Shown one piece after another: positions 3,416 through 51,519 of a stretch of 64,000 nucleotides of DNA. Source of the DNA: Amphibalanus amphitrite (taxonomy: Eukaryota > Arthropoda > Thecostraca > Balanomorpha > Balanidae); NCBI RefSeq assembly GCF_019059575.1, contig NW_024881536.1:992001-1056000 (forward strand). The letters run 5' to 3'. Position numbers and translations under genes: made by a program. The notes beneath the pieces are model-generated. The model had not been told where the DNA came from, ran no database searches, and was given only the letters and a program-made list of their open reading frames with translations. Every line of letters begins with the position of its first letter. The stretch's first letter is position 1.

Positions 3416-4428
3416 TTAACCCGCGCACCGACGGGGGGGGCGGATATCCGCCCCCCCCCTGAGGTTTTTCGCGGATAGCGGGAAAACCGCTGCGCGTAGC
3501 GCCGCGAAATTTGGTATGACTATTCTCTCATCAATTTTACACAGGGTGTGCAAGTTTGAACCTCCTAACTTTTAAGGTCAGGTCACCAGGTCACTTTGAA
3601 TGACCCAACCTCAAGTCACTTTTTTGCAACTTTGTCACCGTGCCAGAGCTACAGTAGATGTCGGAGGCCTTTGAAATTCGCAGGATGTTATTAGGTCATT
3701 AGTAGCTACAATTTGTATATCTCGGAATTTTGATATCGGTGACCTAAGGTCAGGTCAATTTCGCGACCTCCCCATTATAAGTCAATGGGGGAAAAATCAA
3801 CTCCCTGTTTTTACAACTAAAACGGGTCGGAATGGCCCCATATACCATACATGACTTCACATACGATCAACCTTCACTACCTTGAGGTCTGTTTTGCTGT
3901 TGGGCAGCTGTAAGGTCATGTGACGTCATCAAAGGTCACCAAAGGTTTTTTGCCAATAACTCCTTACAGGAACAAGATACAGCCGCGCGGATGGTCTCAT
4001 TGTGCTCAGCTCGTCAAGACGCATCGAATGATATACATGATGACCTCGAGGTCACGTGACCTGAGGTCAACCTTTGACCTTGACCTTTCGAGGTCAACAT
4101 ATATATCATTCGATGCGGATTGACGAGAGGATCACGATGATGCCCTTAGTTTGTTCCTATCTTGACTACTTCGAAAGTTATTCGAGAAAAATCCTCTCCA
4201 TATCTAGCGCCGCCATTTTGACTTTTTCGACCCCTGTGACGTCATCTTTGACCTGACCTGAAAATGACCTTAGTAAAAATTGTAGACCTTGTCCGTGCGT
4301 ATCCGATGCCGTTTACCGCTTGTCGCTATCTTGCTTCGTTCTCGAGATCTCAGGGGGGGGGGGCGGTCATCCGCCCCCCCCCCCGTCGGTACTAAGTTGG
4401 CGCAGACCCCCGTCGGTGCGCGGGTTAA
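3416..4428 (+). mobile_element. TTAA element A, piggyBac-like non-autonomous
   Basis: Flanked by TTAA at 3416-3419 and 4425-4428, with terminal repeat CCCGCGCACCGACGGGGG. At the left a run of G (3433-3440), a self-complementary loop CGGATATCCG and a run of C form a hairpin; a matching hairpin lies near the right end. The right end carries a second CGTCGGT (4384) 27 bp inside the terminal one (4411). The interior has dense AGGTCA/TGACCT half-sites, GACGTCAT at two places, and an inverted repeat around GGTCACGTGACC near 4053 whose arms end in TCGAATGATATA. No transposase is encoded. It is a near-copy of element B, about 95% identical by eye. Confidence 0.9.
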
Positions 4429-6040
4429 TGTCGATGATGATTAACCATTATCGTTATTGTCAATGCCAAGACAAATGCCTATTATTTCCATTTTTATGGG
4501 AAAAATAAATGCAAACAAAAAGTCAGCAAACATGAGAAAACGTCAAACCAGAATCCCACTCTGTTTTTAATTCGATAAAGACATCGCACTAGTTCGACTC
4601 ATTTCAGGTCAAAACGATGCAGTTCTTCAACACGATGAGAATGAAAATGGTTGCAATGTTTGTTTCTCGGCGGAGCTGCTGGGTCGCTCCATGTCGCTTC
4701 CTACAGCTCCGGGGGTCTCAGCCCGCGCCTCGCACCCTGGCCCAGGTCTCCGGGCGAGACCGGTCTCATCTGCGGCCTGCGCAGGCTGGCGGGCGTTGCG
4801 TCTGACGCATCTGCTATCAACTGGCCAAACCAGCTGAGGGGAAAGTCGCTCCGCATGAAATATTATCTTACTTAAAAAAGTGTGCACTCAATGTGTTATG
4901 TGACACAACAATGCTTGACTGGAAATACATCAGGGTAACATATCACACACGGAAAAGCAGAAGTGTAAACGTAGCAGGCATGTTCGAAGAACGCGAGTAA
5001 ATTCAATCAAAGCTGAATCATATCCGGTACTTAGCACGCGAGCCTGACACAAAACTGGCTTTGAGTTTGTTGTTTATGAAGCATTCTCCATTGATTAGTC
5101 ACTGCAGTGCGGATCCTGTCATATAATCCCCACAACAATAAAGTAACAATGGTGGGCTGCACATTTCACAGTCCTGCAGGCTGAATCGATTACACAGTTA
5201 CACCCTTCCGCATTACTTACCCCACTGAAAATGTACAATACTCGCCACATATGAGCGTGCAAAACACCCATCCCTTCCGTATGTTTGATGGTAATGGATA
5301 CTGCGCCGCTTCTGTCGCGCGCTAATGGATTTTGTTCCACCACCGGTACCCACTAGCAGGAATGGATACATGGGCGACGTCCTGTTGCCAAAGTTATCCA
5401 ATCAAAGTCGAATCCGCCGAACCCGGTAACTGGCGCAAAGTTTGGACAATGGCAAACAAGAAACTGATGAGAAGCTGTGAACGGAGCCTAACTTCTTCGC
5501 CGAGTCTGAGGGAAATATTGTCACATACTTCCTGTCGGAGTTGCAGCGAGGGATACTCTTGGGGTCCTGTGCTAAAAGAAACAAAGCAAATGAAATACAA
5601 TTTATAAACAGGTGATGCCAGCTATATGCCGTTGCCTTGCAAAATATACATGTCAGAATGTAAAATTGTGAAACAAGATTCAACCATTAGTTGTTAGCAA
5701 CTAATGAATTACTTTTCACATTATCTCGCGTAAATTATCCATTGTTAGCTCAATATTTTTTTTTTAAGTATAAATGCCATGAATAATATATAAGGTCGGC
5801 GATGCATATTATTCACAACTCATTTACTCTCCGTCACGTTGCCACAATATTGAAGACCGCTGACCATACGTCACCGCTTTCACGCCATTCTGCGCTCGCG
5901 GCTCGCCATTCGCGCTGCTGCTGCGGTCTGTTCTATCGGCTCTCCGGCCGGGTCACCCTCCACGCCACCGGAGCGGGCTCTTCATCGAGGCTCGCTCCCC
6001 CGCCCGGGCCTTTGTGGCACCCGCTTCCGCTGCCACAGCG
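4429..6040. other. Mostly non-coding; one possible minus-strand exon
   Basis: No repeat or recognisable gene apart from the low-confidence minus-strand exon candidate at 5394-5571. The open frames are short and overlap on both strands. Confidence 0.35.
5394..5571 (-). CDS. Possible internal exon, unidentified
   Basis: On the minus strand a pyrimidine-rich tract ending in TTCTTTTAG immediately precedes an open stretch of about 60 codons, a good 3' splice-site shape. Two frames remain open. One gives a leucine-rich helical peptide containing LRLGEEVRLRSQLLISFLF; the other contains DPKSIPRCNSDRKYVTIF. Neither was assigned to a family and no partner exon was found, so this is only a candidate. 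Confidence 0.18.
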
Positions 6041-6057
6041 TGTCACCATAATGGTGC

Positions 6058-6153
6058 ACGCAGTCACGTGGCGCCACGAGTCACTGGCCACCACCGGCTG
6101 GGCGGCACGTGCACCTCATGGCGGCACGTGCATCTCATGGTGACTCGTGGCGG
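6058..6153. repeat. Inverted repeat with clustered CACGTG boxes
   Basis: The left segment CGCCACGAGTCAC recurs reverse-complemented as GTGACTCGTGGCG about 70 bp later. Between and around them are three CACGTG motifs, two inside a short tandem GGCACGTGCAYCTCATGG duplication. CACGTG is the E-box bound by bHLH factors, but function here is not shown. Confidence 0.6.
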
Positions 6154-6217
6154 TGGGGCAACTCGGACACCATGGGACCAATGGATGGTTTCGGACAAAT
6201 GGGTGTCGCGAAATTCC

Positions 6218-6433
6218 ATAAGGCGCGGTGCGAGGACACACACAATACTACTAGCAGTTTCCAAGGGGCTATTTTGGCCATGCAAAACTCAATCTTTTTA
6301 GGAAAAATATTCCACAGCTCTGTATATAAGGCGCGGTGTGAGGACACACACAATACGACTAGCAGTTTCCAAGGGGCTATTTTGGCCATGCAAAAGTCAA
6401 TCTTTTTAGGAAAAATGTTCCACAGCTCTGTAT
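6218..6433 (+). repeat. 108-bp tandem duplication, two copies
   Basis: A 108-bp unit beginning ATAAGGCGCGGTG and ending CACAGCTCTGTAT is present twice head-to-tail with only a few differences, suggesting a fairly recent duplication. No coding function was recognised. Confidence 0.9.
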
Positions 6434-6920
6434 GCTCTTGTTTGTCGAATTATGCTTCCTTGTTTGACGCCTACCATCATACCTGATTTTGATTTACATT
6501 CGTCGATGTAAATGCAAGACGGCTGCAGAACAGTCGATGTCAAACGTAACTTGCGACATCACCTTGTAATAAGCGGCAAAAACACCACAGCATAATCGGT
6601 AACGCAGGATTTTAGCACCTTCGAGCCACCGCCCGTCTGCGCTGGCCGTCAGGTGGAAACGCACGGCCCAAGGCCGTCCCGGCCCAGCCATGCGTCGCCG
6701 TTGTTTGTTGCGTTGTTGACAGCCCGCATTCCGTCGAGGCACGCGGCTCACGAGCGTCCAGTGCGTATCTAATTGAAAGTGAGGGACGCTGTTTAATTAG
6801 CGCGGCTAATTTCGGTCGGGCCGTAAACACCACTCAATTCCGGGTGGGGTTAATTAATCATCGTCTAATGAAATGCGCACCGGGCGTGGACGGACGTCGC
6901 TCCGTCTGTCTGACGCGCGG

Positions 6921-6990
6921 AGATGCCGGCTGCAAAGACGCCCGTCTGTCTGGTGTGGGAAGATGCCGGCTGCAAAGACGCCCGTCTGTC
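6921..6990 (+). repeat. 40-bp tandem duplication
   Basis: AGATGCCGGCTGCAAAGACG with its following bases is repeated at a 40-bp period. A diverged third piece, GATGCCGGCTGCAG, lies near 7064. Confidence 0.8.
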
Positions 6991-7289
6991 CATGGTGTGG
7001 TGATGCTTGGGTGATGCTGTCTGCAGTGCTGCTACCAGCTACTCTGTCTGTCTGTAATGTGATGATGCCGGCTGCAGTGACTCCGGCACACATCTCCCGA
7101 ACTGCTCAGGAGTCAGCACTGTTCCGCGGGGTGCCAGCCGGAGTGGCTGCTTCTCACTCAGGTAAGCCTTACGAAGGACTGGCCGCCAGACATCGAGCCC
7201 TTCTTCGGTGTATCTGATCTGAAGGCATAAGAAATAGACGCTTTGTGCAGATTGTGCTACAATGAAATAACTTCATTGATAATGCTGCT

Positions 7290-8296
7290 TTAACCCGCGC
7301 ACCGACGGGGGGGGGCGGATATCCGCCCCCCCTGAGGTTTTTCGCGAATAGCGGGAAAACCGCGGCGTGTAGCGCCGCGAAATTCGGTACGACTATACCC
7401 TCATCAATTTTACACATGGTGTGCAAGTTTGAACCTCCTACCTTTCAAGGTCCGGTCACCAGGTCACTTTGAATGACCCAACCTCAAGTCACTTTTTTGC
7501 AACTTTATCACCGTGCCAGAGCTACAGTAGATGTTGGAGGCCTTTGAAAGTCGCAGGATGTTATAAGGTCATTAGTAGCTACAATTTGTATATCTCGGAA
7601 TTTTGATATCGGTGACCTAAGGTCAGGTCAATTTCGCGACCTCCCCATTATAAGTCAATGGGGGAAAATCAACTCCCTGTTTTTACCACTAAAACGGGTC
7701 GGAATGGCCCCATATACCATCATGACTTCATATACGATCAACCTTCACTAACTCGAGGTCTGTTTTGCTGTTGGGCAGCTGTGAGGTCATGTGACGTCAT
7801 CAAAGGTCACCAAAGGTATTTGGCCAATAACTCCGTACAGGAACAAGATACAGACGCGCGGATGGTCTCATTGTGTTCAGCTCGTCAAGACGCATCGAAT
7901 GATATACATGATGACCTCGAGGTCACGTGACCTGAGGTCAACCTTTGACCTTGACCTTTCGAGGTCGACATATATATCATTCGATGCGGATTGACGAGAG
8001 GATCACGATGATGCCCTTAGTTTGTTCCTATCTTGACTACTTCGAAAGTTATTCGAGAAAAACTCTCTCTATATCTAGCGCCGCCATTTTGACTTTTTCG
8101 ACCCCTGTGACGTCATCTTTGACCTGACCTGAAAATGACCTTTGTAAAAATTGTAGATCTTGACCGTGCGTATCCGATGCCGTTTACCGCTTGTCGCTAT
8201 CTTGCTTCGTTCTCGAGAGCTCAGGGGGGGGGGCGGTCATCCGCCCCCCCCCGTCGGTGCGAAGTTGGCGCAGACCCCCGTCGGTGCGCGGGTTAA
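7290..8296 (+). mobile_element. TTAA element B, piggyBac-like non-autonomous
   Basis: A near-copy of element A in the same orientation, flanked by TTAA at 7290-7293 and 8293-8296. The right end again has the inner repeat CGTCGGTGCG at 8252, 27 bp inside the terminal copy at 8279, and this inner copy matches the terminal one over 10 bp. Both poly-G/poly-C hairpins, the half-site clusters, the GACGTCAT sites and the central inverted repeat are preserved. Confidence 0.9.
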
Positions 8297-8399
8297 GACC
8301 ACCTTTCTACCAGGTGCAGCCCAGAAGCAAGACGATGCCCCGAACGTTACGAAACACCAGTGGATTGGTTGTGTGGGTCGTGGATGTTTTCAGAGCACA

Positions 8400-9100
8400 C
8401 TCCCTGAACCTCTGATTTTCTGTCGGCCGATGATGGAGCGCCTTGGCCCGGGGCGCTCTGGGCAGACCCTGGGCGCCGCGTCCCCCGTCCCATTTCGTTT
8501 CGATTCCGCCGGGGCAGTCGCTCTCGCCGTAGTAACAGCATTTCCCGGCGGCCGGCCGGCGGTGAATACGGTCCGGCCGGCGACTGATGAGGCCGTCAGC
8601 CGGGGAGCACTTCTCACCCCTGTGCGCGCCCGGCGCACCGCTGATTCCCCTCGGCCCTCCCCAGTGGCGAATAAAATCGTTTTTCCTTCCACTATCGCTG
8701 CCGATTGGGGGAGCGCAATTTGGGGACGCTCCCGGCCTGCGAGGGAGTCTTTGCGCGCTGATAATACACGCGACGGACCCCTGCGGTTAGCGGCTAAATG
8801 CTGTGAAAGCGCGGTATAATCCGTGATAATCAGCCCGGCGCAGACGGTTGGGGAGACCCGCGGCGATAAATTCCCCGCCGCGCTGTCCACCGCACCGCGC
8901 CGTTCCGTGGTCCGTCGGTCCGGTGGTCCGTCGGTCCACCGCTCCGAGGTCCGAGGTCCGTTGGTCCCTGGTCCGAGTTCCGAGGTCTGTCGGTCTCCAC
9001 TGAAGTTCACCAGACGCGCCAAATCGGGGAGGGGTCCGGCGGACAGCTGGAGCCGGAGATTGCGCCGGCGGCTGTGACACATCGCTCTGTCTGATTGGGT
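8400..9100. promoter_or_regulatory. GC-rich CpG-dense stretch with GGTCCG repeats
   Basis: CpG-dense sequence contains, at about 8905-8995, a degenerate short repeat of GGTCCGTCGGTCCG type. Overlapping open frames on both strands look compositional. It may be a CpG-island promoter; no gene was attached. Confidence 0.3.
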
Positions 9101-11804
9101 CGTGCCAACTTTGATCGGTCGCCCCATCGGCCTTCCATTCCCGAGGGCCGCCCGTGACATAGTGGCCGGCCGTGCCCTTATCAAACAGCAATGTGCTCAT
9201 TTCGTCTCCAATCATCGTCGACGAAAAATTGAAGCGGCTGTCATCGCTCTTTTCTCGCCCCCGGTCTGTGATTGGGTCTCCGTGGTTGTTTTTCGGTCTC
9301 ATTTGAGCAATGCGGCTCGTCACAAGTCGCCGACCGCTTGATTGGAACGTGACGAGGCGCTTCGTTTCGCGTGCGACCAAAGTGCGGCGACGAGTCAGCG
9401 GCGGCGGCCGTGGCGCGGCGGGTACTCATGGAGTCAATCATGACGCAGCAGCGCGCCATTGTGTCACCACTGCGGAGGCACATTGTCAGTGGCTTATTGG
9501 CGCTGCTCCCACCATGACTTGGCAATAAAGTCGCCAAGAAAAAGTCGCCAGACGAAGAAATGCGCCGGCCCGTGGCGGTAGCTAGTGATGAAGCGAGTTA
9601 CTCGCTTCCCAGAAAACGTCATCCAATTATCTGCGTGAAATTATCATTATCAAGGGAGTCTGGACGATATTTTACGCACTGCGGTTCCAGAAATATTTAT
9701 AGTGAAGCTTTGTGGCCTGGAGAGCCATGTTTATTGAGGAGGCTGCGTTTGCGCGAGCAGTGTCTGGTTACCTACCACCCAGGATTGTTTAAAGTTCAAA
9801 CTGTGCCGTGACAGCGGACTGGTTGTATGTATAAATTGGCCCCGCTCCCTGGCCGCCGAGTGTGCGTGGTGTCTGACTCATCGCCGCTGCGTCGGCATAT
9901 GCTCTGTACAAGAACGTCTTGGTATACCACCGGACTCTGACCACAGGTCAACGAATAACCAGTCTGTCATTAGCCCTACAAATTTCATTTCATCCCACAC
10001 GATCGCCCAATCTTCTACACCTTCACAACCGCTCTTGCGCCGTACAAAATCAAAAGGAGACACTTCATTCTTCCTCTTCCAGAAACATTCACTTCCCTTT
10101 ATATTGTGCCGATTACTCATATGTACTGGATGAAGTTGATACTTTAGCGTGCATGAAATGCACGCTCGCTTGTTATCATTTGTAATGCTCGAGAAAACAC
10201 GGCAGTCACGGCTTATATCAGACAGATGAATTACTGGCGACTGCGTTCTGTCAAACTGGCCACATGCTGCAACCCGATCAGTGAAAATATACTATACTAC
10301 AAGTCATGAGGCCGTCATGAGGTATGAGGCAAGGGTTGAAGGGCGGTCTCGGCTGGTGACGGGACGGTCGCTGTCTCACCCCCTCTCCCACTGCCGCGCC
10401 GCCTACTCCACCCGCGTCTACTCCGCGCCTCCAGAGCTGCTGACGACTCCCAGAACCCACCCATCAGGTGTGGTCCGGCAACTGAGGAGTGACAACTCCA
10501 ACCCCATCTGGAGGCGGGTGCAATGATCTGGTGATCGTGAAGAGCACTCCGCTGCGGAAGGTCGTCTTCCAGCTCACAACACGAGGAGACTGTTCTGGCG
10601 TGTGTCTGGAGAGCGCATGCTGTCAAGAGTCTGTGGCCTGTCGCACCCTGCTCAGTCGCTTATCGTGTGACGTGACGTGACACCGGCCGTCACGCTGACC
10701 GTCTGGTGCGGGGGGCGTGGCGACGCGCGGGGTGGGTGAACTCGGTGACGGTTGGGGACCGGCAGGATAGAAACAACGGGCACTGAGGGTGCGAGGGCCG
10801 CTGCGTATGAATGGCTACCGACCACGAACCACCCGCGGAAAGGCCCCGGCCGTGGATAAGTGGACTTCTGCTGCGCCGCCCGCTCAGGTGGTATGAACTC
10901 TGAAGGGACCCGGGGTCAGCCGGCTGCCATGAGACTGGGGCGACGCAGCGCGCGCAGGAATTCACCGCCGAGTTCACAGTGGCACGGTTCCGGGACCCGA
11001 CTGCACGCCACGGATTTTAATTCAGTCTCAGTTTGAAATTCAGCGTCTGCCCGACACGCTGGCGTGCCGAGGTTTGACGGCCGCTGAATAATGAACAAAC
11101 TTCGTCCCATTCCAAGCTCACTAACGTGACTGCCAGAAGGTGTCTTGTCAGAAGGTTGCTATACTCTTGGGCATTGTTTTCAGTAAAGCTGGAAATTTAT
11201 TTGGCATCTGATGGCCGTCTTTTACGGATTCGCTACAATTTGCTCGCTCGTGATGACATTCAAAGTTCTGACGAATGATGGTAATGCATTCTATTCCGGA
11301 TACTCCCTCGAGATATCAACATATGTGCTGTATGTTTCCCGCACTGAACATAGTGAACATGTTTCGGCAGTCGAACACTCTCAATAGATATTGATCAGTC
11401 GGTAACCTGCAGGGGTATTTATTCATGGCTTCATGTTTCGTCATGAGGGTATAACTCGAAGGGTAGCAAGAGTCGGCAATACATTGCAATGCCAAATGGA
11501 AATGTGTGTAAACTGAGCATGGGCACGCAGAGACAACCATTGGAGGACGTCCATAAGTCTCATGACTACCAAACTTTCCTTACTGTCGACCAAACCTAGA
11601 TTATTTTTTTTTTTGTCAGACCTTTCGAATGTTTTAGTTCTGAGTCATCTTACTCCCTAGGCTCTTCATGACATACGCAATGCACATCTTGACATCGTGT
11701 TCTGTCACTGCTTAACCGTTAGCTTTCGGCAATGTTTTACGTCACGCCAGGAACGAGGTTGCCCTATGGGATACTCAACACGAGTGTAACTATGTATCAA
11801 CAGT
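9101..11804. other. Non-coding sequence without recognised features
   Basis: No repeat family, RNA gene or protein-like frame longer than about 100 codons was seen. The composition falls from GC-rich at the left to AT-rich at the right. Confidence 0.4.
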
Positions 11805-12993
11805 TTAACCCGCGCGGGGCTGGGGGGGGGGGGGGGTAAATTTTACCCCCCCCTCGCGAATTTTTGCGATATCTCAAAAACGGCGGCGCGCAGCGCCGCC
11901 AAACTTTCAGTACCTTTTCTTACATCAATTTGACACGTTCCCTGAAAATTTGAGCGAAATCCGTCGGAAAATTTTTGAGAAATTGACGTTTTAGTGACGT
12001 CATGTTCGCCATTTTCGCCTCAAAAACGGCAAAAGTTCAAACGCCGCTAACATCTTCATTTTTAAAGGAATCAAGACGTAACAAAAAAGGTTATACGTAA
12101 TTTTACTTTGTCTATCAAATGGCTATCTCGGTTTTTTGAAAATTTTGGATTTTGGCCTAAATTTTTTCAAAAAACTGACTTTTTTGGGAAAATCATTATA
12201 AAATCCAAAATTTTGAGTCTATCGAAAAAACCGGAATATATGTCAGAGAAGTGGTCTATGTGCACCTACATACCAAATTTTAGAAGAATCGGTTCAAAAA
12301 TGTGGGAGTTATTCAAAATTTTATGACGTCACGACACACAAATTTTTTGAAAAATGACTTTTTTGGAAGTTCTAGACCTCGTACGGAAACAAAAATAGCA
12401 CCATTCGATTCGCCGTGAAAAACTGCATCAGATAGACACCTTTTTAGGCCTTAACAACCAACTTCAAAATTTGACCTCACTTGACCTGACCTTGACCTGA
12501 CCTCGACCTGAAATTCATCCAGAGGTGGTCCATATCACTTATTGAGTGTGCCTATTGAATTCTATGAGTAAAATGACCCATAAAACATGTGTCGCACATG
12601 CCCTTTTCTATATTTTGTTTTTTGGTGACCTGACCTGACCTGACCTGACCTTGACCTTGACCTCTGAATGATATTGTATGCAACGAATATTGTCTTGGTA
12701 GCCTAAGAACACGTTTTTGGCGATCAGTCTCAGTCCATGACTCCATTCTTCGGCAACTACGGTACAAGGCCGATACTGTAGAAACTTGCAATTTGTACCC
12801 TTGACCTGACCTTGACCTTGACCTCAAACTTTAAATTAAGTACATGTTTTTAGTAGTTCGTGATGAGAGCTTTCGATTGGCGTTTGAATTTTCCAAATCG
12901 GACCATTAGTTCGGGAGATAACAGGGGGGGTAAAATTTACCCCCCCCCCAGCCCCGCGCGTTCGGCTGGAGACCCCAGCCCCGCGCGGGTTAA
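11805..12993 (+). mobile_element. TTAA element C, piggyBac-like non-autonomous
   Basis: TTAA flanks lie at 11805-11808 and 12990-12993, with termini CCCGCGCGGGGCTGGGG. The left hairpin is a perfect palindrome, poly-G then TAAATTTTA then poly-C; the right hairpin has loop TAAAATTTA. At the right end GCCCCGCGCG at 12951 repeats at 12978, an offset of 27 bp. The interior includes a TGACC array (12626-12662), and GACGTCA occurs near 11996 and 12326. The interior matches element F in reverse orientation. Confidence 0.9.
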
Positions 12994-14025
12994 GTTGGCC
13001 ACCTTTCATTGCAAACATAAGCATTCCTGGCCACCTGAACCGTAAAGCTCGCTAACACGCATTCCATGTGACCTGACAAACAGCTGGCAACAGGCCTGAC
13101 ACGGCTGTCCTGCTACGCTGAGTATCCTGAAGCGGTTCCAAATACATGTCGAGTCAACTTCTCTTAGCAGCCTGTCCAATTAGGTACTGCACGAGTTGAT
13201 CACCATTGCAGACACTTGATCCATCCCAGACAGCCACCGAGAGAGTGGTTACAAATCTGCTAGGACCGCCAGTTAGAGACCTGAGACCCAGCAGACAATT
13301 CCGTCCGGACGCGCAGCGGACAGCCGCCCAGACACTCAGCAGACAGCCGCCCAGACACCCAGCATGAGCATTGAGCAAACAACCATCCCAGAGAGCAATT
13401 GCAAAACTGCCAGGACCGCCAGTCAGCCAGTCAACATGGACACCATTCCAGACAGCAGCGGGGCCGGCCGGCGTCATTTTGGGAGGTGCGAAGATGCAAT
13501 TTGGTGTATTGGCCAGCGGGATAGGTCAGTCAAGGCCCGGTCCTTCTGTTTGAGGGCGGACCGGCCAGCAAAGGTCCTGCCCTGCCGAGGGCGGCATTGC
13601 TCCCCGAATTTACAGTGTTTGCTCAGTGGAGGGGGGGGGGGGGATGACGGACAGCTCAGGCGCGCCGCCTGTGCAGGCGGAGCTGGGATTATCGCCCACG
13701 GCTCCGGCCGCGATTTAGATGCCTCAGACGGCGCGAATGATGAACTCGAGGCGTGCTCCGGGCTGTCGGATCAGTGTGACTGTTTTGTGGGCGGCGGCTG
13801 GTCGGGTCTGTACGAAGAAGGTCAGGAACAGCTGTAGTTGTCACCCGTGTGGGTATTTGCGCTGTCCGCCCCGGGGGAGGTCCGCGTGATATATTTTCCA
13901 TGGGATTTGGTCCGTGGTTACACTCTCTGCCGCCGTCTCCTCAGCCGTCGGGTGTGGCCGCCCTGAGCGAGTTTGGGGCCTGCTGGTGTCCATAAGTTCA
14001 CCCAAGGGACGGTCGCCGTGCTTAG
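12994..14025. other. Non-coding with diverged short duplications
   Basis: Between about 13215 and 13470 blocks of ATCCCAGACAGC, AGGACCGCCAGT and GACAGCCGCCCAGACAC type recur in diverged form, suggesting an old tandem array. No protein-like frame was recognised. Confidence 0.4.
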
Positions 14026-14929
14026 TTAACCCTCGCCGGCACAGGCCATTTTGCGTCCTTCGACGGCACAAGGGGGGGGGGGGTACGACCCCCCCCTCGC
14101 GTTTGGCCCCTGATCGAGCTAGAGCTTCGCGGAAAAAACGAGCGTGTTGCCCGTCACGAGAGGAAGCCGATGGTACCCAATTTTAAGGTCCTAGGTCATC
14201 GGGTGACCTTCCAGGTCAGGTCAATGACCCGAAAACCGGGAAAATCGGGACCTGTTAGAAAGTCGTAAAGTGTGGCTGCTATGTGGTTTTCCGGGGTGCT
14301 GATCACGAATATCGTGTTAGTTTTGATCAGTGATGATGTCTTTAAGCATTTTGACCAGGTCGGGTCAGGTCAGGTCAGGTCAACCGGTAGGGGCTGTGAC
14401 GGGTAATCGTAATACGTGTCAACCGCCTCTGACAGCTTCGTAACATGTTACAAAGGCACCAAAACTACTTCGTAAATGTTCAAATGGTTGCTAAATTCGA
14501 ATTCAGCTCCAAAAACTAGCCTAGAAACATGTAAAACTCGAAAAAAGTGAACCGAGGTCACCCGAGGTCACCAAAGGTCAATGACCTGACCTGACCTTCA
14601 GGTGACCTTGACACCCACCCCAATGTATGGGAGCAACATCAAATCACATGTTTGAACGTTTGAAACCACGAAAAGCTTGCAAACGCGCGGCTAATACGAG
14701 CCGACATACGCCGAATCGCGATTCCGGCCAAACATGGTCTCGGAAAAGAGGTCACAGGTCAAAGGTCATTGGGATCAGGGTCATGAAATTTTCAGGGTAG
14801 GTGTAAAATTGATCAATGCGAGGGCACTGGAAGTTTCGTCGCGATCGGCCGCTTTTTACGTGAGTTATTCGCGAAAAACCTTAGGGGGGGTTGCATCAAC
14901 CCCCCCCCCCCTGTGCCGGCGAGGGTTAA
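14026..14929 (-). mobile_element. TTAA element D, piggyBac-like non-autonomous
   Basis: TTAA flanks lie at 14026-14029 and 14926-14929, with perfect terminal repeat CCCTCGCCGGCACAG. The complex end is on the left: CGGCACA at 14037 recurs at 14064 (27 bp). Poly-G/poly-C hairpins lie at both ends. The interior contains GGTCAGGTCAGGTCAGGTCA near 14363 and further TGACCTGACC clusters near 14580. It matches element H in reverse orientation. Confidence 0.9.
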
Positions 14930-15178
14930 TGATGCCAGTGTCCTACATGGTGGACATTGTACATGTTGGAACACATCAGGTACCGACCCGCGCGACATCA
15001 TACAATATGCATATTCCAGCAACAAGCTCACGTTTGTAGCGTTCGCATGTGTAAAATAATTGGACGCATTCAGTTCGCATTGTCATTCATTTATTGTTTT
15101 TAAGGAAAATAGAGGATTTATCATATTGAGATGCCCTAAACGCTCTTTTCTTACATCTTTTAAAGTCAGTGCCGCACA

Positions 15179-16220
15179 TTAACCCTCGCCGGACCTATTG
15201 GTTTTCTACATACGCGCCGGCCGAGGGGGGGGGGCGGGTACGACCCCCCCCTCGCCGTTTCGCCCCTGGTGGAGCTAGCGCGTCGCGGAAAAAACGAGCG
15301 TGTGCGCCGTTACGAGACGCAGAGATTGGTACCCGATTTTAAGGTCCTAGGTCAACCGGTGACCTCTGAGGTCAGGTCAAGTGCCCCAAGGTACGGTTCA
15401 GTTTTTGGTGCATAACTTCGCAAAAAACGGCCGCAGAGCCGCGATTTTGGCAGCATCGTGTTCGCCCCGCTCAGGCGCGTCGAATGATATACTTTTTGTC
15501 CGGGTCAGGTCAACTTGGGGTGTTGACCTCAGGTCAAGGTCAGGTCAGCACCCCCAGGTCACGAAGTTGGTCGAAAGAGGTCATGTCGCATATCATTCGA
15601 TTCGGTAGGTCTTCCTGAGTCCATTGGTGGCTTTCCCGACTCGCTAGCTCAATTTGATCAGGAGTTATTGACGAAAAACTAATGTGACCTTGATGACGTC
15701 ATAAATGACGTCACGCGAGGTCAATATTGCAAAAGTGACGCATCTAACCTTGCAAGGAGTGCATAAAATCACGATTCTGTGTGCTTGAGATAGTTGGAGA
15801 TCGTTCCCGGCGCCAGAATAGCAGTTTTCATTTTTCCCCATTGACTTATAATGGTGAGGTCACGAAAATGACCTGACCTCATATGACCTTTAGGAAAAAT
15901 CCGAGATATACAAATTGTGAGACTCATAATGGATATTAGATCCTGCAAGTTTCATTTCCCTGTGACATCTCCTCTGGCAGTGAGGGCGTTGCGAAGTTGC
16001 GACATCTGGAGACCGTGCAGAGGTTCACTTATGACGTCATAGGTCAGTGACCTGACCTGACCCAAAAATGCGGTCGGTGTCAAAAGATGCGGCTTGGATC
16101 AAAGGTCAGGTATGCCAAGTTTCAGCTCTCTATCGCCAGCGTGTTCGGAGCTATCGCGAAAAAACCCTATGGGGGGGGGGGGGCGGCACCCGCCCCCCCC
16201 CCTCGGCCGGCGAGGGTTAA
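15179..16220 (-). mobile_element. TTAA element E, piggyBac-like non-autonomous
   Basis: TTAA flanks lie at 15179-15182 and 16217-16220, with terminal repeat CCCTCGCCGG. The complex end is on the left, with CGCCGG at 15187 and again at 15215 (28 bp), the inner copy continuing into the poly-G run. Hairpin loops are CGGGTACGA and CGGCACCCG. The interior carries many AGGTCA half-sites, two GACGTCA motifs near 15696-15712, one near 16031, and an inverted pair TCGAATGATATA/ATATCATTCGA (about 15480 and 15590). No close second copy was found in the window. Confidence 0.88.
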
Positions 16221-28726: not shown

Positions 28727-29400
28727 GCCCGGGGGCACCACAGGCCTGTCAGGGGCACCACCGGCCTAGCAGGGGCACTACCAGCCCGCCAGGGGCACCA
28801 CAGGCCTAACAAGGGCACCACGGGCCTGTGAGGGGCCCCACAGGCTAGGCTTGTCAGGGGCACCCCAGGTCTGCCAGGGACACCAGAGACCTGCCAGGGG
28901 CGCCGCCGGCCTTGCAAGGGCACCATGGGCCTGTCAGGGGCACCAGAGGCCTAGCAGGTGTACCACAGGCCTTACAGGGGCACCTTGGGCCTGTCAGGGG
29001 CACCACAGTCCTGTCAGGGCCCAGGGACACCAGCGGCCTAGCAGGGGCACCACAGGCCTGCCAGGGGCACCACCGGTCTAGCAGGGGCACCACCGGCCTC
29101 GCAGGGGCACCATGGGCCTGTCAGGGGCCCCACCGACCTCGCAGGGGCACCACCGGCCTCGCAGGCATCACGGCATCACGCAGGGGCACCTTGGGCCTGT
29201 CGGGGGCATCACGGGCCTGTTGGGGGCACTTTAGGCTTGTCAGGGGCACCACAGTCCTGTCAGGTCCCAGGGGCATCAGCAGCCTAGCAGGGGCACCCTA
29301 GGCCCGCCAGAGGCACCACAGGCCTGCCAGGGTCCAGGGGCACCACAGACGTACCAAGGGCACCACGGGTCTGTCAGGGGCACCTCAGGCTCCCGTGCCC
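28727..29400 (+). repeat. 20-bp GGGGCACCACAGGCCTG minisatellite
   Basis: More than 25 degenerate copies of GGGGCACCACAGGCCTGYCA run head-to-tail. Because few units contain stops, long frames appear on both strands, but these are repeat artefacts. The same unit fills the element at 32498-33246. Confidence 0.9.
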
Positions 29401-31211: not shown

Positions 31212-32390
31212 TTAACCCGCGCCCCGCTGGGCTATTCAGCCATACGCGCCCTGCTGGGGGGGGGGCAGATTCTGCCCCCCTGTCTAACTTCCGAACCGAT
31301 GGTCGTAGAAAGACGGGGAAAACGGCAATCGAAAGCTCTCAACAAGGCGGATCTTAAGAGCCCAAATTTTTTTGCTTAAGTAGGTCAGAGGTCAGGTCAA
31401 GGTCAGGTCAAGGGTACAAAATGCAAGTTTCTACAGTATCGGTCTTGCACCGTAGTTGCCGAAGAATGGACTGAGACTGATTGCCCAAAACGTGTTCTTA
31501 GACTACCAAGACAACATTCGTTGCACACAATGTCATTCAAAGGTCAAGGTCAAGGTCAGGTCAGGTCAGGTCAGGTCACCAAAAACAAAATATAGAAAAG
31601 GGCATGTGCGACACATGTTTTATGGGTCATTTTACTCATGGAATTCAATAGGCACACTCAATAAGTGATATGGACCACCTCTGGATGAATTTCAGGTCGA
31701 GGTCAGGTCAAGGTCAGGTCAAGTGAGGTCAAATTTTGAAGTTGGTTGTTAAGGCCTAAAAAGGTGTCTATCCGATGCAGTTTTTCACGGCGAATCGAAT
31801 GGTGCTATTTTTGTTTCCGTACGAGGTCTAGAAGTTCCAAAAAAAATCATTTTTAAAATTTTTGTGTGTCGTGACGTCATAAAAATTTGAATAACTCCCA
31901 CATTTTTGAACCGATTCTTCTAAAAATTGGTATGTAGGTGCACATAGACCACTTCTTTGACATATATTCCGGTTTTTTCGATAAACTCAAAATTTTGGAT
32001 TTTATAAATAATTTCCCAAAAAAGTCAGTTTTTTGGAAAAATTTGGCCAAAATCCAAAATTTTCAAAAAACCGAGATAGCCATTTGATAGACAAAGTAGA
32101 ATCACGTATAACCTTTTTTGTTACGTCTTGATTCCTTTAAAAATGAAGATGTTAGCGGCGCTTGAAATTTTGCCGTTTTTGAGGCGAAAATGGCGAACAT
32201 GACGTCACTAAAACGTCAATTTCTCAAAAATTTTCCGACGGATTTCGCTCAAATTTTCAGAGAACGTGTCAAATTGATGTATGATAAGGTACTGAAAGTT
32301 TGACGTCGCTGGCGTAACGCGTTTAGAAGTTATTGGCGAAAAACGGGAGGGGGGCAGATTCTGCCCCCCCCCCAGCGGGGCGCGGGTTAA
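31212..32390 (-). mobile_element. TTAA element F, piggyBac-like non-autonomous
   Basis: TTAA flanks lie at 31212-31215 and 32387-32390, with terminal repeat CCCGCGCCCCGCTGGG. The complex end is on the left: GCTGG at 31226 recurs at 31253 (27 bp). Both hairpins have loop CAGATTCTG. The interior is the reverse-orientation counterpart of element C, with AGGTCA arrays near 31385-31410 and 31547-31580 and GACGTCA near 31871 and 32200. It sits inside the AGCCGACC hAT-like element. Confidence 0.9.
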
Positions 32391-32497: not shown

Positions 32498-33246
32498 CAG
32501 TGGCGAATCCCAGGGTGGAGGTCACATGGGTCATGACTTAGGGCCTGGGGTCACCACATGCCTGCCAGGAGCACCACAGGCCTGACAGCCGACAGGGGCA
32601 CCACAGGCCCGCCAGGGGTACCATAGGCCTAGCAGGGGCACCACGGGCCTGTCAGTGGCACCACAGGCCTGTCAGGAGCACCATCGGCCTAGCAAAAGCA
32701 CTACAGGTCTTCCAGGGGCACCACAGACCTGCCAGGGGCACCAGAGGCCTGCCAGGGGCACTATCGGATTCGCAGGGGAACCACCGGCCTCGCAAGGGCA
32801 CCATGGGCCTTTCAAGGGCACCACAAGCCTGTCGTTGGCAATTTAGGATTGTCAGAGGCACCACAAACCTGTCAAGGGCACCTGCGTTCTAACAGGGGCA
32901 CCACAAACCTGCCAAGGCCCTGCAGGGACACCACAGGCTTAGCAAGGACACCACAGGCCTGTCAGGGCTCATGGGCACCTAAGTCAAGTCAGGGCCCACC
33001 GTAGGCTTGTCAGGGGGCAGGGTAGGTAGGTACCACAGTCTTTCCAGGGGCATCAGCGGCCTAGCAGGTGCAGGGGCACCAGTCATCACATGACTAACCA
33101 AAAATAAAGAAAATAAAAAAACTGAAAATAGGGCACCACCAAAATTAGGTGGCCGAAATCCGTTGAGGTTTTAATTTTGGGCATAGGTAGGGGCACCACT
33201 TCGATTCATGGCCCTCCCCTTGGAGTTTTCCCCGAATCTGCCCCTA
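32498..33246. mobile_element. hAT-like element with TSD GTACTAAT and 20-bp minisatellite
   Basis: GTACTAAT flanks both ends (32490-32497 and 33247-33254). The termini CAGTGGCGAATCC and, reversed, TAGGGGCAGATTC are imperfect inverted copies. Most of the interior (about 32535-33075) is the GGGGCACCACAGGCCTG minisatellite also seen at 28727-29400, so the array travels as the body of this element family. Confidence 0.82.
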
Positions 33247-41090: not shown

Positions 41091-42455
41091 TTAACCCTAG
41101 AACGCCTGGGGGGGGATTGTATCAACCCCCTCCCCCCCCTGAGGTTTTTTTCGAAGTGCACGCTAAACGGCTTGTCGTAGCGGGCTGAAATTTTCAATAC
41201 CCTCTGGGGCAACCTTTGCGCATCTTTTGCCGAAAAAAATTGATCGGGTCATGTCAGGTCACGGAGTTATGACGTCATAAGAGGTACAGCCTCCGGCCGA
41301 CAGTTACCAAACGTGTGCGCCGAATCCCTGGGTTTTCTGCCGGTGATACCCACATTGTTTGATGGATCATGATGAAACTTCCCATGCATGTTGGGGCAAG
41401 CATTGGCTATCGTGTGGTGCAAGAAAATTGACCGGGTCAGGTCAGGTCACGGAGTTATGACGTCATAAGAGGTACAGCCTCCGGCCGGATTTTCACGAAG
41501 TGTGTACCGAGTCCCGAGGTTTTCTGCTGATGCTATCCACATTGTTGGAAGTTGGAAATACACTTTTCTGAGTCGTTACCTACAGTATTTATAGCGGAGC
41601 AGTGGTCAACAGCCGACGAATCGGGACAAACACCGGAGGGTGATGTGACACCATATCACTCGTCTATTGTGAAACTTGGTAGGTAGGTAGGTAGGTAGGT
41701 ACCACATAACTTGAAATTACTTGACGTAATGACATGATGTGGAAAGTGAAAATGATACCTAGGTATTGATGGAAATTTATGGACTTAGGTACGCTACAAG
41801 AAGATTGAATTGGTCAACCAATTCAAATTCAATCTACTTGTGGAGTAAGTCTATAGATTTTCAGTTACCATTACCACTTACCATTGAAGTTACTTGCTAT
41901 CATGTTGATTTTATACATAAGAACCTCATTTATTTTATTTGTATGACATGTTTGAATGCAATTTTCTCAATAAGTGAAGAAAAATGTTGGTAGTGCTCAA
42001 CAACACATTGGTAGTGCTCAGCTGAACATTGGTAGTGCTCGGGCACTCCCAGGCCTATACAAAACGACGCCCCTGCACTCATCAGCAATAGGCCTCTTAC
42101 TTTTATAGGGTAAATACACCAAAAACACCATATATGATGCAGAATTGAGTGGGAAATACGTTGCTGATGGTTTGAAGTTAATATCTCTCACCGTTTTGCC
42201 GCAATCGTTGCGCAAAGTTGAAAAAGTTTGATTTTTTCGGAAAATTTGACCTTTGACCGGTCATAAGTAGGTCAAATGTTGACCTAGGACCAAAAAATAT
42301 ACCACCAATCGCGAGATTACGTTGAGAGCAATCCGTTGGTTTTTTCCGCTAAGCTCTACGACCTTCCGTTTCGAAACGCCAGGGGGGGGGTCGTAACAAC
42401 CCCCCCCCCCTGGTCGTTCGTGTTATGAGAAATGGCCTGGTCGTGCGAGGGTTAA
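41091..42455 (+). mobile_element. TTAA element G, piggyBac-like non-autonomous
   Basis: TTAA flanks lie at 41091-41094 and 42452-42455. The left terminus TTAACCCTAGAACGCC begins with the same CCCTAGA as the well-known piggyBac terminus. The right end is complex: TGGTCGT at 42411 recurs at 42438 (27 bp). Poly-G/poly-C hairpins lie at both ends. It carries repeated GGTCAGGTCACGGAGTTATGACGTCATAAGAGG-type modules (cut here between words) near 41260 and 41440. The right half matches element I reversed. A probable later insertion (about 41665-42075) enlarges it. Confidence 0.87.
41665..42075. mobile_element. Probable hAT-like insertion inside element G
   Basis: The right boundary, read reversed, is CAGGGGCGTCGTTTTG, a hAT-like terminus. 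The segment lacks half-sites, unlike the rest of element G, and holds (GTAG)n at 41682-41700 and three TTGGTAGTGCTC units near 41987-42040. CACTCGTC (41657-41664) and CACTCATC (42076-42083) match 7 of 8 bases. The left terminus does not match the right one, so it may be truncated. Confidence 0.45.
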
Positions 42456-46145: not shown

Positions 46146-46755
46146 TGTCGACTGACAGCCGGGGAGAGGGTTCAGTCGCCCTTCGACCTCCGGGTCTATC
46201 CTCTGACCCTCCGACCTCTGGGTCTGTCCTCTGACCCTCCGCTCCAACCTTTGGCTCTGTCCTCTGACCCTCCGACCCCCGAGTCTGTCCTCTGTCCCTC
46301 CGTGCAGTCCCGGGACACGTCTGTCCTCTCTCCCTCTGACCCCCGGGACACGTCTGTCCTCTCTCCCTCCGACCCCCGGGTCTGTCCTCTGACCCTCCGA
46401 CCCTCGGGTCTGTCCTCTGACCCTCCGACCCCCGGGTCTGTCCTCTGACCCTCCGACCCCCGGGTCTGTCCTCTGACCCTCCGCTCCAACCTCCGGGTCT
46501 GTCCTCTGTCCCTCCGACCCCCGGGTCACGTCTGTCCTCTGTCCCTCCGACCCCCGGGTCTGTCCTCTGACCCTCCGACCCCCGGGACACGTCTGTCCTC
46601 TGACCCTCCGACCCCCGGGTCTGTCCTCTGACCCTCCGACCTCTGGGTCTGTCCTCTGTCCCTCCGCAGTCCCGGGACACGTCTGTCCTCTGACCCTCCG
46701 TGCAGTGCCGGGACACGTCTGTCCTCTGACCCTCCGTGCAGTCCCGGCGCCGCGT
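46146..46755 (-). repeat. 28-bp minisatellite, open in several frames
   Basis: About 20 units built from CTCTGACCCTCCGACC, CCCGGGTCTGTC and the variant CCCGGGACACGTCTGTC. Since 28 is not a multiple of 3 and the unit lacks stops on the minus strand, three minus-strand frames stay open, the longest for 206 codons (GSEGQRTDPGVG-type repeats). This is most likely a non-coding minisatellite. Confidence 0.9.
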
Positions 46756-49685
46756 CACCGCCGCGTCCGCAGCATCAGCACGGAGCCGGCTGCCCTGGTG
46801 GCTTTTTGTCGGAAATATCGCGGAATCGTTCGAGGAAGAACAGTGTTTATCAGTGGTCCGTAGATGTCAAATACTTACTAGTGCTTGATGATCTGCGGTT
46901 CAAGAAGATGTTCGATACTCATCATAGGCCCAATGTGCACGAATCAAGGCTGCGACGACCTCTCAGAATATGCTGCTTACCCTGTGAAAGAATAGCAGAG
47001 GCCATTAACCTCATAGTAAGTTTGTGACTTTGTTATGGATGGTAATATGTACTGTAATTAGTCGAACAAATGGTGCAAAGCAGATGTGTTTTGCTAATAA
47101 TATTTCTGAAAACTTTAAAAGTGTCCGGAACAGCATTACCAATTTTTACACACGATACTGATCCACCATCCGAGGACTACCGGACTATGGACTAGGTCAC
47201 TCCTAGCGCACACGTGGATGGCTGTGCACAGAGGTCACAGATCAGCTCCTCCCGCCGCGCTGGGTAACGAGCTGAAGGGCGCTGCCGTCTCACTCGGACG
47301 GGTAAATTGACTCGTTCCCGGCGGTGCTCTGGGCACTGATCGGCACGCGGACGTCTCCGTCCCCGGCCGACTGACGGCGGCCCGCCCGCGCGCTAAGTGG
47401 AGGTGTCACCGGCAGCGGCCAGCGCCGGACGCCCCGCCGGCCGGTGGTAATAGCACGTCACCGCGGCGCGGCCGGCCGGCGCACCGCCCGCCGGTCACGG
47501 GCCGAGCGGGAGGACGGAGCTGGTCCACGTGCAGCCGCTCCCACGTGACAGCCAACCTGTCGACTGGTGTGGGTCAGTCCAGCCGGGTCCTGAGTCTCGG
47601 TGTCTCAGAGCTGCCCAGAGTGTCACTACCTCATTGAGCTGGTTAAAGTAGACAGGCAGGGGTAGACAGGAGCTCTCAGTTGCGTCTCGCGATATCCGAT
47701 TGTCGTTTGCACCAAACCTCGAGCTCGCGTGTGTGCGTCCGAATCCGACAGCCGCACCCACCCGCATGCCTGTTGCAGCAATGAACAGGCTACTTGGATA
47801 GCAGGTCACGAAGTATCGGCCCGTTTCCGTCTGCGCGGGACACTCGTCCATAGCCGGCCGGTCAGGTCGCTCCATCCACAGTCCTTGATCGCGGCGGTTC
47901 AATAACCCACCACACCGCAGCTTCTTGTGCGCATCTACGCTCAGATGCTTCCTCAGTAGGCACCAGAACGGTACCTTTTTACCGGTATTTGCCATCGACC
48001 CGACTATAATTACCGATCAGACGTCGGCAAAAACTCCAAACAAATAGGTGATTCGTCTGAGAGCTGGGCCTGTGCTGCGCGCTCTGTGACGTGGCTCGTG
48101 GACAAAACACAGCGGTGACTCGTCGATTAGGTCGGCCGGTTCGACACTGACGAACCGCCCGGTCAAGGGAGGAGCGGTGGTTCCTCCCGCTGACGGACAG
48201 CCCGTTCAGAGGAGGACCGGTGGGTCCTCTGGGACGGGTCCTAACTGGCTGGTGACCGGAGACCACCTTCGAGCTCGGCACCCGCCCCACACCGGGCCCA
48301 CACGTGACCTGGGCCCCGATAGAGGCGCGTGACTGGACTCTAGCAGGGAAGCTCACTACTTAGGTGCCGCAGGGTTTGCGCGGCTCGCAACAGGCTGCAG
48401 ACAGGATGCATGCAAATGCATGAATACCAACTATGATAAACCTATCGTCATACAGTATACACTTCTTCTTCTAGAGTTTATTTGGAGGGAAATCTTACTC
48501 TTGATTCGCTATCAAAACTATTTTGTTATTGGAAGGGTTTCAGTTATTGATCAATCAATGAACAAGTACATACCTATGCAAAAAGGAGCGTAAAAGTGCC
48601 TATTAAAAGGTGTTTAATTTGACATCATTTTGCTCTAAGAGCCGTCTTACCACGTCGGCATTAAATATTACGCTTGCCTACATTCATTTTACACAGGTAA
48701 ACTAGATAAAAAGAAATCAATTACTAGAAATCAATTACTACGAGCTGAAGCTCTGTTTGAGGCTTATTATGCATATCAATATTGTAAAAATAAATTGCTG
48801 TCGAAAAATAAAAATGATATGCAGAGTATTACACAGACACTACATACTCAGGTTGAGTAAACTATAATGTAGCTTGGATAAGCCAGACAATAAATATTTG
48901 ATTTTTAATCTACTTAGCTTTACGGTTGCATCTCACCCTACCATTCCACATGCCATGGGTAAAGTTGTATGCGAAATTGATAAACGGTTAGCTTGATTTC
49001 ATGCTCGCAAAAGTCATTGTAGATCGGTAACCGGTCAGTGGTCAAACGCACGTCCTTGGAAATATCTTTCGACTAGCCTACACTCTGCGTGTTTTCATTG
49101 CTCTCTTCTAAACGTTTCTTTCGGGAAATGTATTATTTATGGAATGGACATCCAGTATCATCGCCAGTTCTGGTTATTTACGACATTTGATGCGAGAAGC
49201 ACATCACACATATGCTGAACCACAGACCGAGCTGGCAAGTAGCAATCTATATGCAATTTCATTATTCAGCGGCGCTTTGCCACCTCGTTTCGGCGCCACA
49301 AGACTCGCATGTAATCCGAAATGGCGCGCCTGTGTGTGGGAGAATCTGGCGCGCCATCCTCTCAGTCTGTCGCGCCAAATTACCGCTGAATTCAGCGTCC
49401 GTCGAGCCACCCCGTCCTGCGGGACTTCACAGCGACGGGAGGAAATTCAATCAAACCTCCCCGGGCCTGCCAATTATCAAATTTATGCGCGACTTAGCCG
49501 CCGCGTCGCAGCCCTTCATGGTGCGTGGTGATGTGCTCTCCGGGCGCCGGTGTATGTTTGGTGATCTGCAAACGTTCAAAGTACATTAAACACTGTTCGA
49601 CTGTTTTATCTTCTCATTTTTTTTTTCTTCAAATTCCAGGGTCTTTGCCGATTATATGAAATTACTGCACTTCGTCAAGTGCAAG
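46756..49685. other. Mostly non-coding
   Basis: A GC-rich stretch lies at about 47330-47510, followed by AT-rich DNA from about 48400. A short duplicated AGAAATCAATTACTA word occurs at about 48712-48740. No gene recognised. Confidence 0.4.
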
Positions 49686-50577
49686 TTAACCCTCGCATGT
49701 GTAGGGGGGGGTCGGATGGACCCCCCCTGGTTTTTCGCGAATAACTCGCGTAAAAAGCGGCCGATCGCGACGAAACTTTCAGTACCCTCGCATTGAGCAA
49801 TTTTACACCTACCCTGTAAATTTCATGACCCTGACCCAAATGACCTTTGACCTGTGACCTCTTTTCCGAGACCATGTTTGGCCGGAATCGCGATTTCGCG
49901 TATGTCGGCTCGCACTAGCCGCGTGTTTGCAAGCTTTTTGTGGTTTGAAACGTTCAAACATGTGATTTGATGTTACTCCCGTCTGTGTCAAGGTCACCTG
50001 AAGGTCAGGTCAGGTCATTGACCTTTGGTGACCTCGGGTGCACTCGGGTCACTTTTCGAGTTTTACATGTTTCTAGGCTAGTTTTTTGGAGCTGAATTCG
50101 AATTTAGCAACCATTTGAACATTTACGAAGTAGTTTTGGTGACTTCGTAACATGTTACGAAGCTGTCAGAGGCGGTTGACACGTACTACGATTACCCGTC
50201 ACGACGCCTACTGGTTGACCTGACCTGACCTGACCCGACCTGGTCTAAATGCTTCAAGACATCATCTGTGATCAAAACTAACACGATGTTCGTGATCAGC
50301 ACCCCGAAAAACCCCTTAGCAGCCACACTTTACGACTTTCTAACAGGTCCCGATTTTCACGACTTTGGGTCATTGACCTGACCTGGAAGGTCAACCAATG
50401 ACCTAGGACCTTAAAATTGGGTATCATCGGCTTCCTCTCGTCACGGGCAACACGCTCGTTTTTTTCCGCAAAGCTCTAGCTCGATCAGGGGCCAAACGGC
50501 AAGGGGGGGGGTCCAACCGACCCCCCCCCCCCCTACACATTAGAAGCTGGCAAACGCCGCACACATGCGAGGGTTAA
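49686..50577 (+). mobile_element. TTAA element H, piggyBac-like non-autonomous
   Basis: TTAA flanks lie at 49686-49689 and 50574-50577, with termini CCCTCGCATGTGT. The right end is complex, with ACACAT at 50535 and again at 50561 (26 bp). Hairpins lie at both ends. The interior is the reversed counterpart of element D, including a TGACCTGACCTGACC array near 50217. The right TTAA is also the left TTAA of element I. Confidence 0.9.
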
Positions 50578-51519
50578 CCCTCGCCCGTAAACGGCGATCT
50601 GCCACCTTCGCCCATGCAGGGGGGGGGGTTGGTGCGACCCCCCCCCCCTTGGCGTTTGAAAACGGAGCGTCGTAGAGCTTAGCGGAAAAGACCAACGGAT
50701 TGCTCTCGCCGAGATCTCGCGATTGGTGGTATATTTTTTGGTCCTAGGTCAACATTTGACCTACTTTTGACCGGTCAAAGGTCAAATTTTTGGAAAAATA
50801 GATTTTTTTCAACTTTCCGCGGCGATTGCGGCAAAAGGGTGGGAGATATCGACTTGAAACCTTCACTATCGTGTTCCTTGATCAATTCTCTATCGTTTGG
50901 TATATATTTCGTTTCCCTAGCTCTAAAAATGGCGCGTTGGGAGCGCCGGAAGTCGGCAAGGTCACAGTCGGCGGCAGAAATTCTAAAAATCAAAATTTAA
51001 ATTTTTGAAATCTGATGTATTTTTGGATTTGGGAGGTCCATTTGCTCCCTATAGAAGCTAATATTGCTGCATATTCCCATTGAGGTGACAAGAATTAGCA
51101 AAATAGTGGTTCGGGCGCTTTTCAAAAATAGTACCGGACGCTGTTCCTCTTGTGACGTCATAGCTCCGTGACCTGACCTGACCCGGTCAAGTTTCTTATA
51201 CCATATGATAGCCAATACTTGCCCCAACATGCATGGGAAGTTTCATCACGATCCATCAACCGATGTCCGTACCACCGGCAGGAAACCTCGGGCGTTGGCA
51301 CTCAGTTTGTGAAAATCCGGCCAGAGGCTGTTCCCTTTGTGACGTCATAACTCCGTGACCTGACATGACCCGGTCAATTTTTTTTATCAAAAGACGCGCA
51401 AGGTTTGCCCCATAAGGTACACAAAATTTGGCGGCGCTGCGCGCCGCCGTTTTTGCACTATTTCCGAAAAACCTCAGGGGGGGTTGCACCAACCCCCCCC
51501 CTACATGGGCGAGGGTTAA
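50574..51519 (-). mobile_element. TTAA element I, piggyBac-like non-autonomous
   Basis: TTAA flanks lie at 50574-50577 (shared with H) and 51516-51519, with termini CCCTCGCCC. The complex end is on the left: TCGCCC at 50581 recurs at 50608 (27 bp), and the inner copy TCGCCCATG matches the opposite end better than the outer copy does. Hairpin loops are TTGGTGCGA and TTGCACCAA. The interior parallels element G reversed, with GACGTCA near 51152 and 51341. Confidence 0.9.

Follow-up and report, generated by a model that had tools for sequence, protein, structure and literature searches.

We analysed a stretch of 64,000 base pairs (bp) of the Amphibalanus amphitrite genome (contig NW_024881536.1, positions 992,001 to 1,056,000), which contains no N and is called the window below. 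It harbours nine elements without genes, here named A to I, with lengths of 892-1365 bp when both flanking TTAA copies are counted. Each element has a simple end, where a short, putative recognition sequence (the box) occurs once, and a complex end, where the box is repeated at an offset of about 27 bp. The elements and their ends are as follows, in window coordinates:

3416..4428, reverse strand: element A of family A/B, its complex end on the right; both ends have TTAA and CCC, and A is collinear with B (95.8%)
4353..4428, reverse strand: complex end of A, with TTAA, tip, box, spacer, second box at +27 and G/C palindrome
3416..3459, forward strand: simple end of A, with TTAA, tip, single box and G/C palindrome
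7290..8296, reverse strand: element B, family A/B
8224..8296, reverse strand: complex end of B, second box at +27
7290..7332, forward strand: simple end of B
11805..12993, reverse strand: element C, family C/F
12924..12993, reverse strand: complex end of C, second box at +27
11805..11853, forward strand: simple end of C
14026..14929, forward strand: element D, interior of family D/H, complex end on the left
14026..14096, forward strand: complex end of D, second box at +27
14884..14929, reverse strand: simple end of D
15179..16220, forward strand: element E, a mosaic
15179..15251, forward strand: complex end of E, second box at +28, inner copy closer to the simple end than the outer copy
16171..16220, reverse strand: simple end of E
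31212..32390, forward strand: element F, family C/F
31212..31280, forward strand: complex end of F, second box at +27
32349..32390, reverse strand: simple end of F
41091..42455, reverse strand: element G, interior of family G/I
42382..42455, reverse strand: complex end of G, second box at +27
41091..41130, forward strand: simple end of G, agreeing at bp 5-14 with the outer copy of the complex end in 5/10 and with the inner copy in 6/10 positions
49686..50577, reverse strand: element H, interior of family D/H
50503..50577, reverse strand: complex end of H, second box at +26
49686..49727, forward strand: simple end of H
50574..51519, forward strand: element I, interior of family G/I, its complex end facing that of H across a common TTAA (50574-50577)
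50574..50648, forward strand: complex end of I, second box at +27
51477..51519, reverse strand: simple end of I

A first-pass annotation of the window had proposed nine TTAA elements, and all nine were found. TTAA is present at all 18 outer edges, as expected from the target-site duplication of piggyBac transposons, and CCC makes up the first three bases of all 18 ends, in agreement with the CC[C/T] termini of the piggyBac superfamily (PMC2872659). When counted on both strands the window contains 25 TTAACCC sites, 18 of which are the edges of the nine elements; at the other seven there is no G-run in the 106 bp behind the TTAA. Four of the elements (B, C, D and E) are clustered inside 9 kb (7290-16220).

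Inward from the TTAA the two kinds of ends begin in the same way. CCC is followed by [T/G]CGC (17 of the ends; the simple end of G has TAGA), and a box whose sequence varies between elements occupies about bp 8-14. At the simple end the box is directly followed by a G-run, a core of 5-10 bp and a C-run, while the complex end has a spacer and the second box between the outer box and the same arrangement of G-run, 5-10 bp core and C-run. The distance from the tip to the G-run is 13-14 bp at nine of nine simple ends, within the range of terminal repeats in the piggyBac superfamily (about 12-19 bp), and 40-42 bp at nine of nine complex ends, so the proposed division into one simple and one complex end holds for every element. 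The start of the palindrome is shifted by 26-28 bp between the two ends in all nine, which is the asymmetric placement seen in IFP2, the piggyBac element of Trichoplusia ni.

The palindromes themselves are a general feature of the ends. At least six G followed by at least five C are present at 18 of 18 ends, and the stricter pattern of seven G and seven C at 15, being absent from both ends of F and the simple end of G. The stricter pattern occurs nowhere else in the window and in none of 100 shuffles. The G-runs are 8-15 bp long, and some of the cores are palindromic in their own right, e.g. CGGATATCCG and CAGATTCTG. Past the palindromes lies a partly conserved stretch, a different one on each side, which aligns across all nine elements. 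When the complex end is placed first, blastn matches A/B, C/F, D/H and G/I in the same order. The complex end always lies on the same side of the interior, and therefore elements that are reversed relative to one another carry it on opposite sides; this explains the switching of sides that had been noted earlier.

Element E is a mosaic: just behind its complex end it is D-like (85% over 154 bp), and its middle is A/B-like (77% over 149 bp and 80% over 130 bp). Further, H and I abut complex end to complex end with a common TTAA (50574-50577), as if the target duplication of one had served as the insertion site for the other. Their spacers are similar by eye, and their interiors come from different families.

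The offset was determined by a self-match, where each end is slid against itself and the best lag is taken. For the complex ends the best lag is 27 in seven elements, with E (28) and H (26) as the exceptions, exactly the offsets that the annotation had given, while none of the nine simple ends shows a comparable repeat by the same procedure. As in IFP2, a second copy of the core-binding box is present at one end only.

With the G-run excluded, the match at lags 26-28 is significant by shuffling at each of the nine complex ends (p <=0.0086, the smallest being 0/5,000). If any lag is allowed to score, still with the G-run excluded, the individual support from A, E, H and I is weak, with shuffle p-values of 0.07-0.13. 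When the 7-bp tip is fixed and the rest of the end is shuffled, the best lag falls within 26-28 in a fraction of 0.087-0.119 of the 2,000 trials run for each end. Multiplied over eight ends (the near-copy B was dropped) this gives 8.5e-9, a value that treats related ends as independent. The families are related and their ends are not independent; the product therefore overstates the case, and it is evidence that the feature exists and not that selection acts on it. A chance origin of the offset is rejected by the shuffle tests, the ends being related: the offset is a real feature, for which coincidence is ruled out and shared ancestry is not.

The letters of the box vary between elements but agree within an element. 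The types of box present are ACCGACG, GGGGCTG, CCCGCTG, CGGCACA, CGGCCGA, ATGTGTA, ACGACCA and CCATGTA. At bp 5-14 the simple end and the outer copy of the complex end agree on average in 8.7 of 10 positions within an element, compared with 5.2 between elements. For the simple end and the inner copy the corresponding values are 8.8 and 4.5, and for the outer and inner copies 8.4 and 4.7. Each of these within-element values was reached by 1 of 20,000 permutations (B dropped). The simple and complex ends share 7-10 of the 10 positions in eight of nine elements, and 5 in G. Palindrome cores, too, mostly correspond between the simple and the complex end of an element, a result reached by 0 of 20,000 permutations (B dropped).

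Related elements were also compared box by box, and below the identities are given per seven positions for the simple, complex-outer and complex-inner boxes. The interiors of D and H are 94.3% identical (772 aligned columns, 18 gap columns), and their boxes agree in 2, 1 and 2 positions. For C and F the interiors are 92.5% identical and the boxes agree in 4, 4 and 4 positions; for G and I the interiors are 80.5% identical (825 columns, 429 gap columns) and the boxes agree in 2, 3 and 3. A and B are 96.3% identical inside and their boxes agree in 7, 7 and 7 positions, so in this pair the boxes have not diverged. In the first three pairs the boxes differ at all three sites, and the second copy has thus changed along with the other two. 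The annotation had described a repeated sequence that differs between families at a kept offset; box sequences do differ between elements here while the spacing stays.

An offset of this size is already known from piggyBac. In its right end the box that the core of the transposase contacts (bp 7-16) recurs from bp 34, an offset of 27, and after this second copy comes a palindrome to which the C-terminal domains bind (Chen et al. 2020, PMC7351741). The sequences of its left (LE35) and right (RE63) ends used here agree with four numbered statements in PMC7351741. The self-match of RE63 gives a lag of 27 for bp 7-18, and LE35 shows no comparable repeat; the asymmetry of piggyBac ends, to which the annotation had pointed, is thus present both in the published description and in our measure. 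In these ends the palindrome starts at bp 17 in the left and at bp 45 in the right end, 28 bp apart, and the published spacers are 3 and 31 bp (PMC10140906).

In general there is a close resemblance to piggyBac. TTAA duplication, CCC tips and a 13-bp terminal repeat are common to both, the palindrome lies near the tip at one end and deeper at the other (by 28 bp in piggyBac, by 26-28 bp here), and the end with the distant palindrome carries the second core-binding box at an offset of 27. With the G-run and C-run next to the box as the counterpart of the piggyBac palindrome, the simple end is laid out as the piggyBac left end and the complex end as the right end. The differences are that the box has another sequence, that several elements with differing boxes stand side by side here, and that there is no transposase gene within the elements.

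Experiments on piggyBac tell something about the role of this layout. With the native transposase in cells the pairing LE35/LE35 is inactive, and RE63/RE63 supports excision but no integration. When the second box of RE63 is randomised, or 5 bp are inserted, transposition falls to about half, and an extra site on the left end roughly doubled it. In vitro, RE33 integrated better than RE63. The uneven ends are termed puzzling and enigmatic by Chen et al. (all PMC7351741).

We consider it probable that the nine elements are non-autonomous cut-and-paste transposons of the piggyBac superfamily with ends of the IFP2 type, comprising four interior families and the mosaic E, in which the spacing is set by two transposase dimers. 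In each end, behind the CCC tip, the box at about bp 8-14 would be read by the core of a piggyBac-type transposase, and the palindrome of G-run and C-run by a pair of C-terminal domains. By analogy with the published piggyBac model, a first dimer would cut at the tips, and a second dimer would dock on the inner box and the adjoining palindrome of the complex end, so that a left and a right end are synapsed. The spacing may then be kept as a requirement for placing both dimers at a constant distance and rotation, while the sequences of box and palindrome would differ according to the transposase that reads them. It is likely that box and palindrome follow the transposase while the dimer-set spacing stays. 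The suggestion of the first-pass annotation, a transposase-recognition geometry conserved despite diverged sequence, is supported in that the same layout exists in piggyBac and the boxes differ at a kept spacing.

More tentatively, and with a probability that we put clearly below even, the elements could represent switches of specificity within a fixed architecture: the three boxes and two palindromes of an element would be replaced as a set, its interior and the spacing frame staying as they were, and one non-autonomous lineage would thereby move between piggyBac-type transposases. The G-run and C-run tracts may serve as shared homology for such an exchange of ends.

Several observations weigh against the proposal of piggyBac-type ends with a dimer-set spacing. 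The agreement within elements is imperfect: in two of eight elements (D and E) the core of the simple-end palindrome fits the complex-end core of another element better, the simple end of G fits its own complex-end copies at 5-6 of 10 positions only, and in E and I the outer copy of the box has drifted from the inner. The complex-end homology of D and H found by blastn starts only at bp 47-48 from the TTAA, the entire outer 42 bp, spacer and both boxes, being unlike. Since the spacer differs along with the boxes, an exchange of the whole end is as possible as a change in place. The palindrome centres (26.5-33 at simple and 54.5-58 at complex ends, compared with 25 and 53 in piggyBac) differ between the two ends of an element by 22 to 31.5 bp, which is less regular than the offset. 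We attribute this spread to the varying lengths of the G-runs, and the strict regularity thus belongs to the boxes and the palindrome starts. Further, the palindromes consist of a G-run and a C-run around a variable core of 5-10 bp, while the site in piggyBac is an A-tract. The hyperactive piggyBac transposase tolerates both symmetric pairings of ends (PMC7351741), and therefore the second box is not strictly needed with that enzyme.

The searches for a transposase weigh in the same direction. A tblastn search with 120 listed of 978 relatives found no piggyBac transposase in the window (best E 0.073). Pfam scans of 18 different open reading frames, a minority of those in the window, gave no match (two scans of 10 each), and within the window we found no gene for a DDD transposase (PF13843) bounded by such ends. 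Nothing found in the window therefore ties these ends to a transposase directly. Elsewhere, the simple-end pattern had 0 matches in viral contigs, and no piggyBac transposase could be confirmed among 46 pattern matches in viral contigs and 23 in prokaryote genomes. The sub-terminal pattern had 0 viral and 17 prokaryote matches; the latter are taken as chance because none of the 17 has TTAACC or the palindrome within 250 bp upstream. Rfam reported nothing at gathering scores.

An obvious alternative is that the duplicated box and its spacing were inherited from one ancestral element, without selection, and that nine related copies still share both. The families are indeed related, as the stretches behind both palindromes align across all nine and blastn links the families, the spacers of some families are similar by eye, and only nine copies were measured; in such close relatives ancestry alone could keep the spacing, a further point against the proposal above. 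Nine related copies alone cannot separate constraint from shared ancestry. However, the boxes of D/H, C/F and G/I differ at all three sites despite interiors that are 80-94% identical, and the offset has moved by at most 1 bp although G-runs vary from 8 to 15 bp and the interiors are gapped, which makes simple inheritance quite improbable to us. Somewhat less improbable, though still unlikely, is that ends were exchanged or converted between elements as blocks and did not co-evolve with a transposase, so that the spacing was kept as whole ends moved. This would account for D and H, where the stretch from the box through the spacer to the second box differs as a unit next to nearly identical interiors, and it agrees with the mosaic nature of E and with the similar spacers of H and I, which abut head to head. 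But for D/H the exchange must have struck both ends of one element with the same type of box, and block exchange does not account for the origin of a common offset among ends whose boxes differ.

The inner box and its palindrome might also act as a brake, i.e. a transposase site that reduces activity by competition or silencing and is not required in the synapse. Such a function has a precedent in the innermost left-end site of piggyBat (Myotis lucifugus), which inhibits transposition (PMC11707139, PMC13405395), and the better integration of RE33 than RE63 in vitro (PMC7351741) fits it as well. The inactivity of LE35/LE35 with the native enzyme in cells and the halved activity after mutation of the second box (PMC7351741) point the other way. 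A brake would also tend to vanish from non-autonomous copies, yet the second box is kept in nine of nine, and we hold this explanation to have a low probability. It is most improbable that the elements belong to Kolobok, another superfamily that duplicates TTAA: its termini are 5'-RR and YY-3' (PMC9587614), whereas all 18 ends here start with CCC, and the layout of the ends matches that of piggyBac. Membership in Kolobok was rejected on the termini, since TTAA duplication together with CC[C/T] termini fits piggyBac and not Kolobok.

As here, the left end of piggyBat has a repeated motif followed by a palindrome, there is more than one dimer site, and the ends are asymmetric; in its transpososome two dimers form an asymmetric tetramer (PMC13405395). 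However, its left-end motifs are located at 11, 55 and 99, i.e. 44 bp apart (PMC11707139), and its right end is without a matching palindrome. This difference also counts against the proposal above: the layout is one of piggyBac itself and does not hold throughout the superfamily. The CMITEs of Acropora corals (PMC2872659) are likewise small non-autonomous TTAA elements, with several families per genome and interiors more conserved than the terminal repeats, but they are about 100 bp long, and a duplicated inner box is not described for them in the parts of that paper used here. CsuPLE1.1, a piggyBac-like element of Chilo suppressalis, shares the 13-bp terminal repeats and asymmetric sub-terminal inverted repeats according to the published text available to us, but it is 2406 bp long and has a transposase gene, and that text gives no spacing for a second box.

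In the open full-text papers that were searched, as far as their accessible text goes, we found no report of a second-box offset conserved across piggyBac families. The persistence of the offset among elements with differing recognised sequences is thus the part worth following. Differing letters combined with a kept second box and 27-bp spacing are the kind of evidence that is needed to separate a working part from a relic. They suggest a rule by which piggyBac-type elements can be found by geometry and not by sequence, and the natural variants of the ends could serve to study the evolution of transposase specificity.

The motif AGGTCA/TGACCT is abundant in the elements. There are 135 copies inside the nine elements compared with 27 in the rest of the window, while 300 mononucleotide shuffles of the elements contain 4.3 on average and 11 at most. 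In all nine elements a first group of copies starts 156-206 bp from the complex end, and in seven (A-F and H) a second group is found at about 330-400 bp. Neighbouring copies on the same strand are most often 5 or 6 bp apart. We take the motif to be the nuclear-receptor half-site, and the clusters may be sites for host factors or an additional transposase-binding array.

Outside the elements, an open reading frame of 189 amino acids on the reverse strand (63433-63999) has three relatives, the best with 70% identity, and no Pfam match; by eye only, it resembles the end of a retrotransposon integrase. Finally, two separate arrays of a 20-bp unit are located at 28732-29390 and 32543-32833, with a consensus close to GGGGCACCACAGGCCTGTCA.

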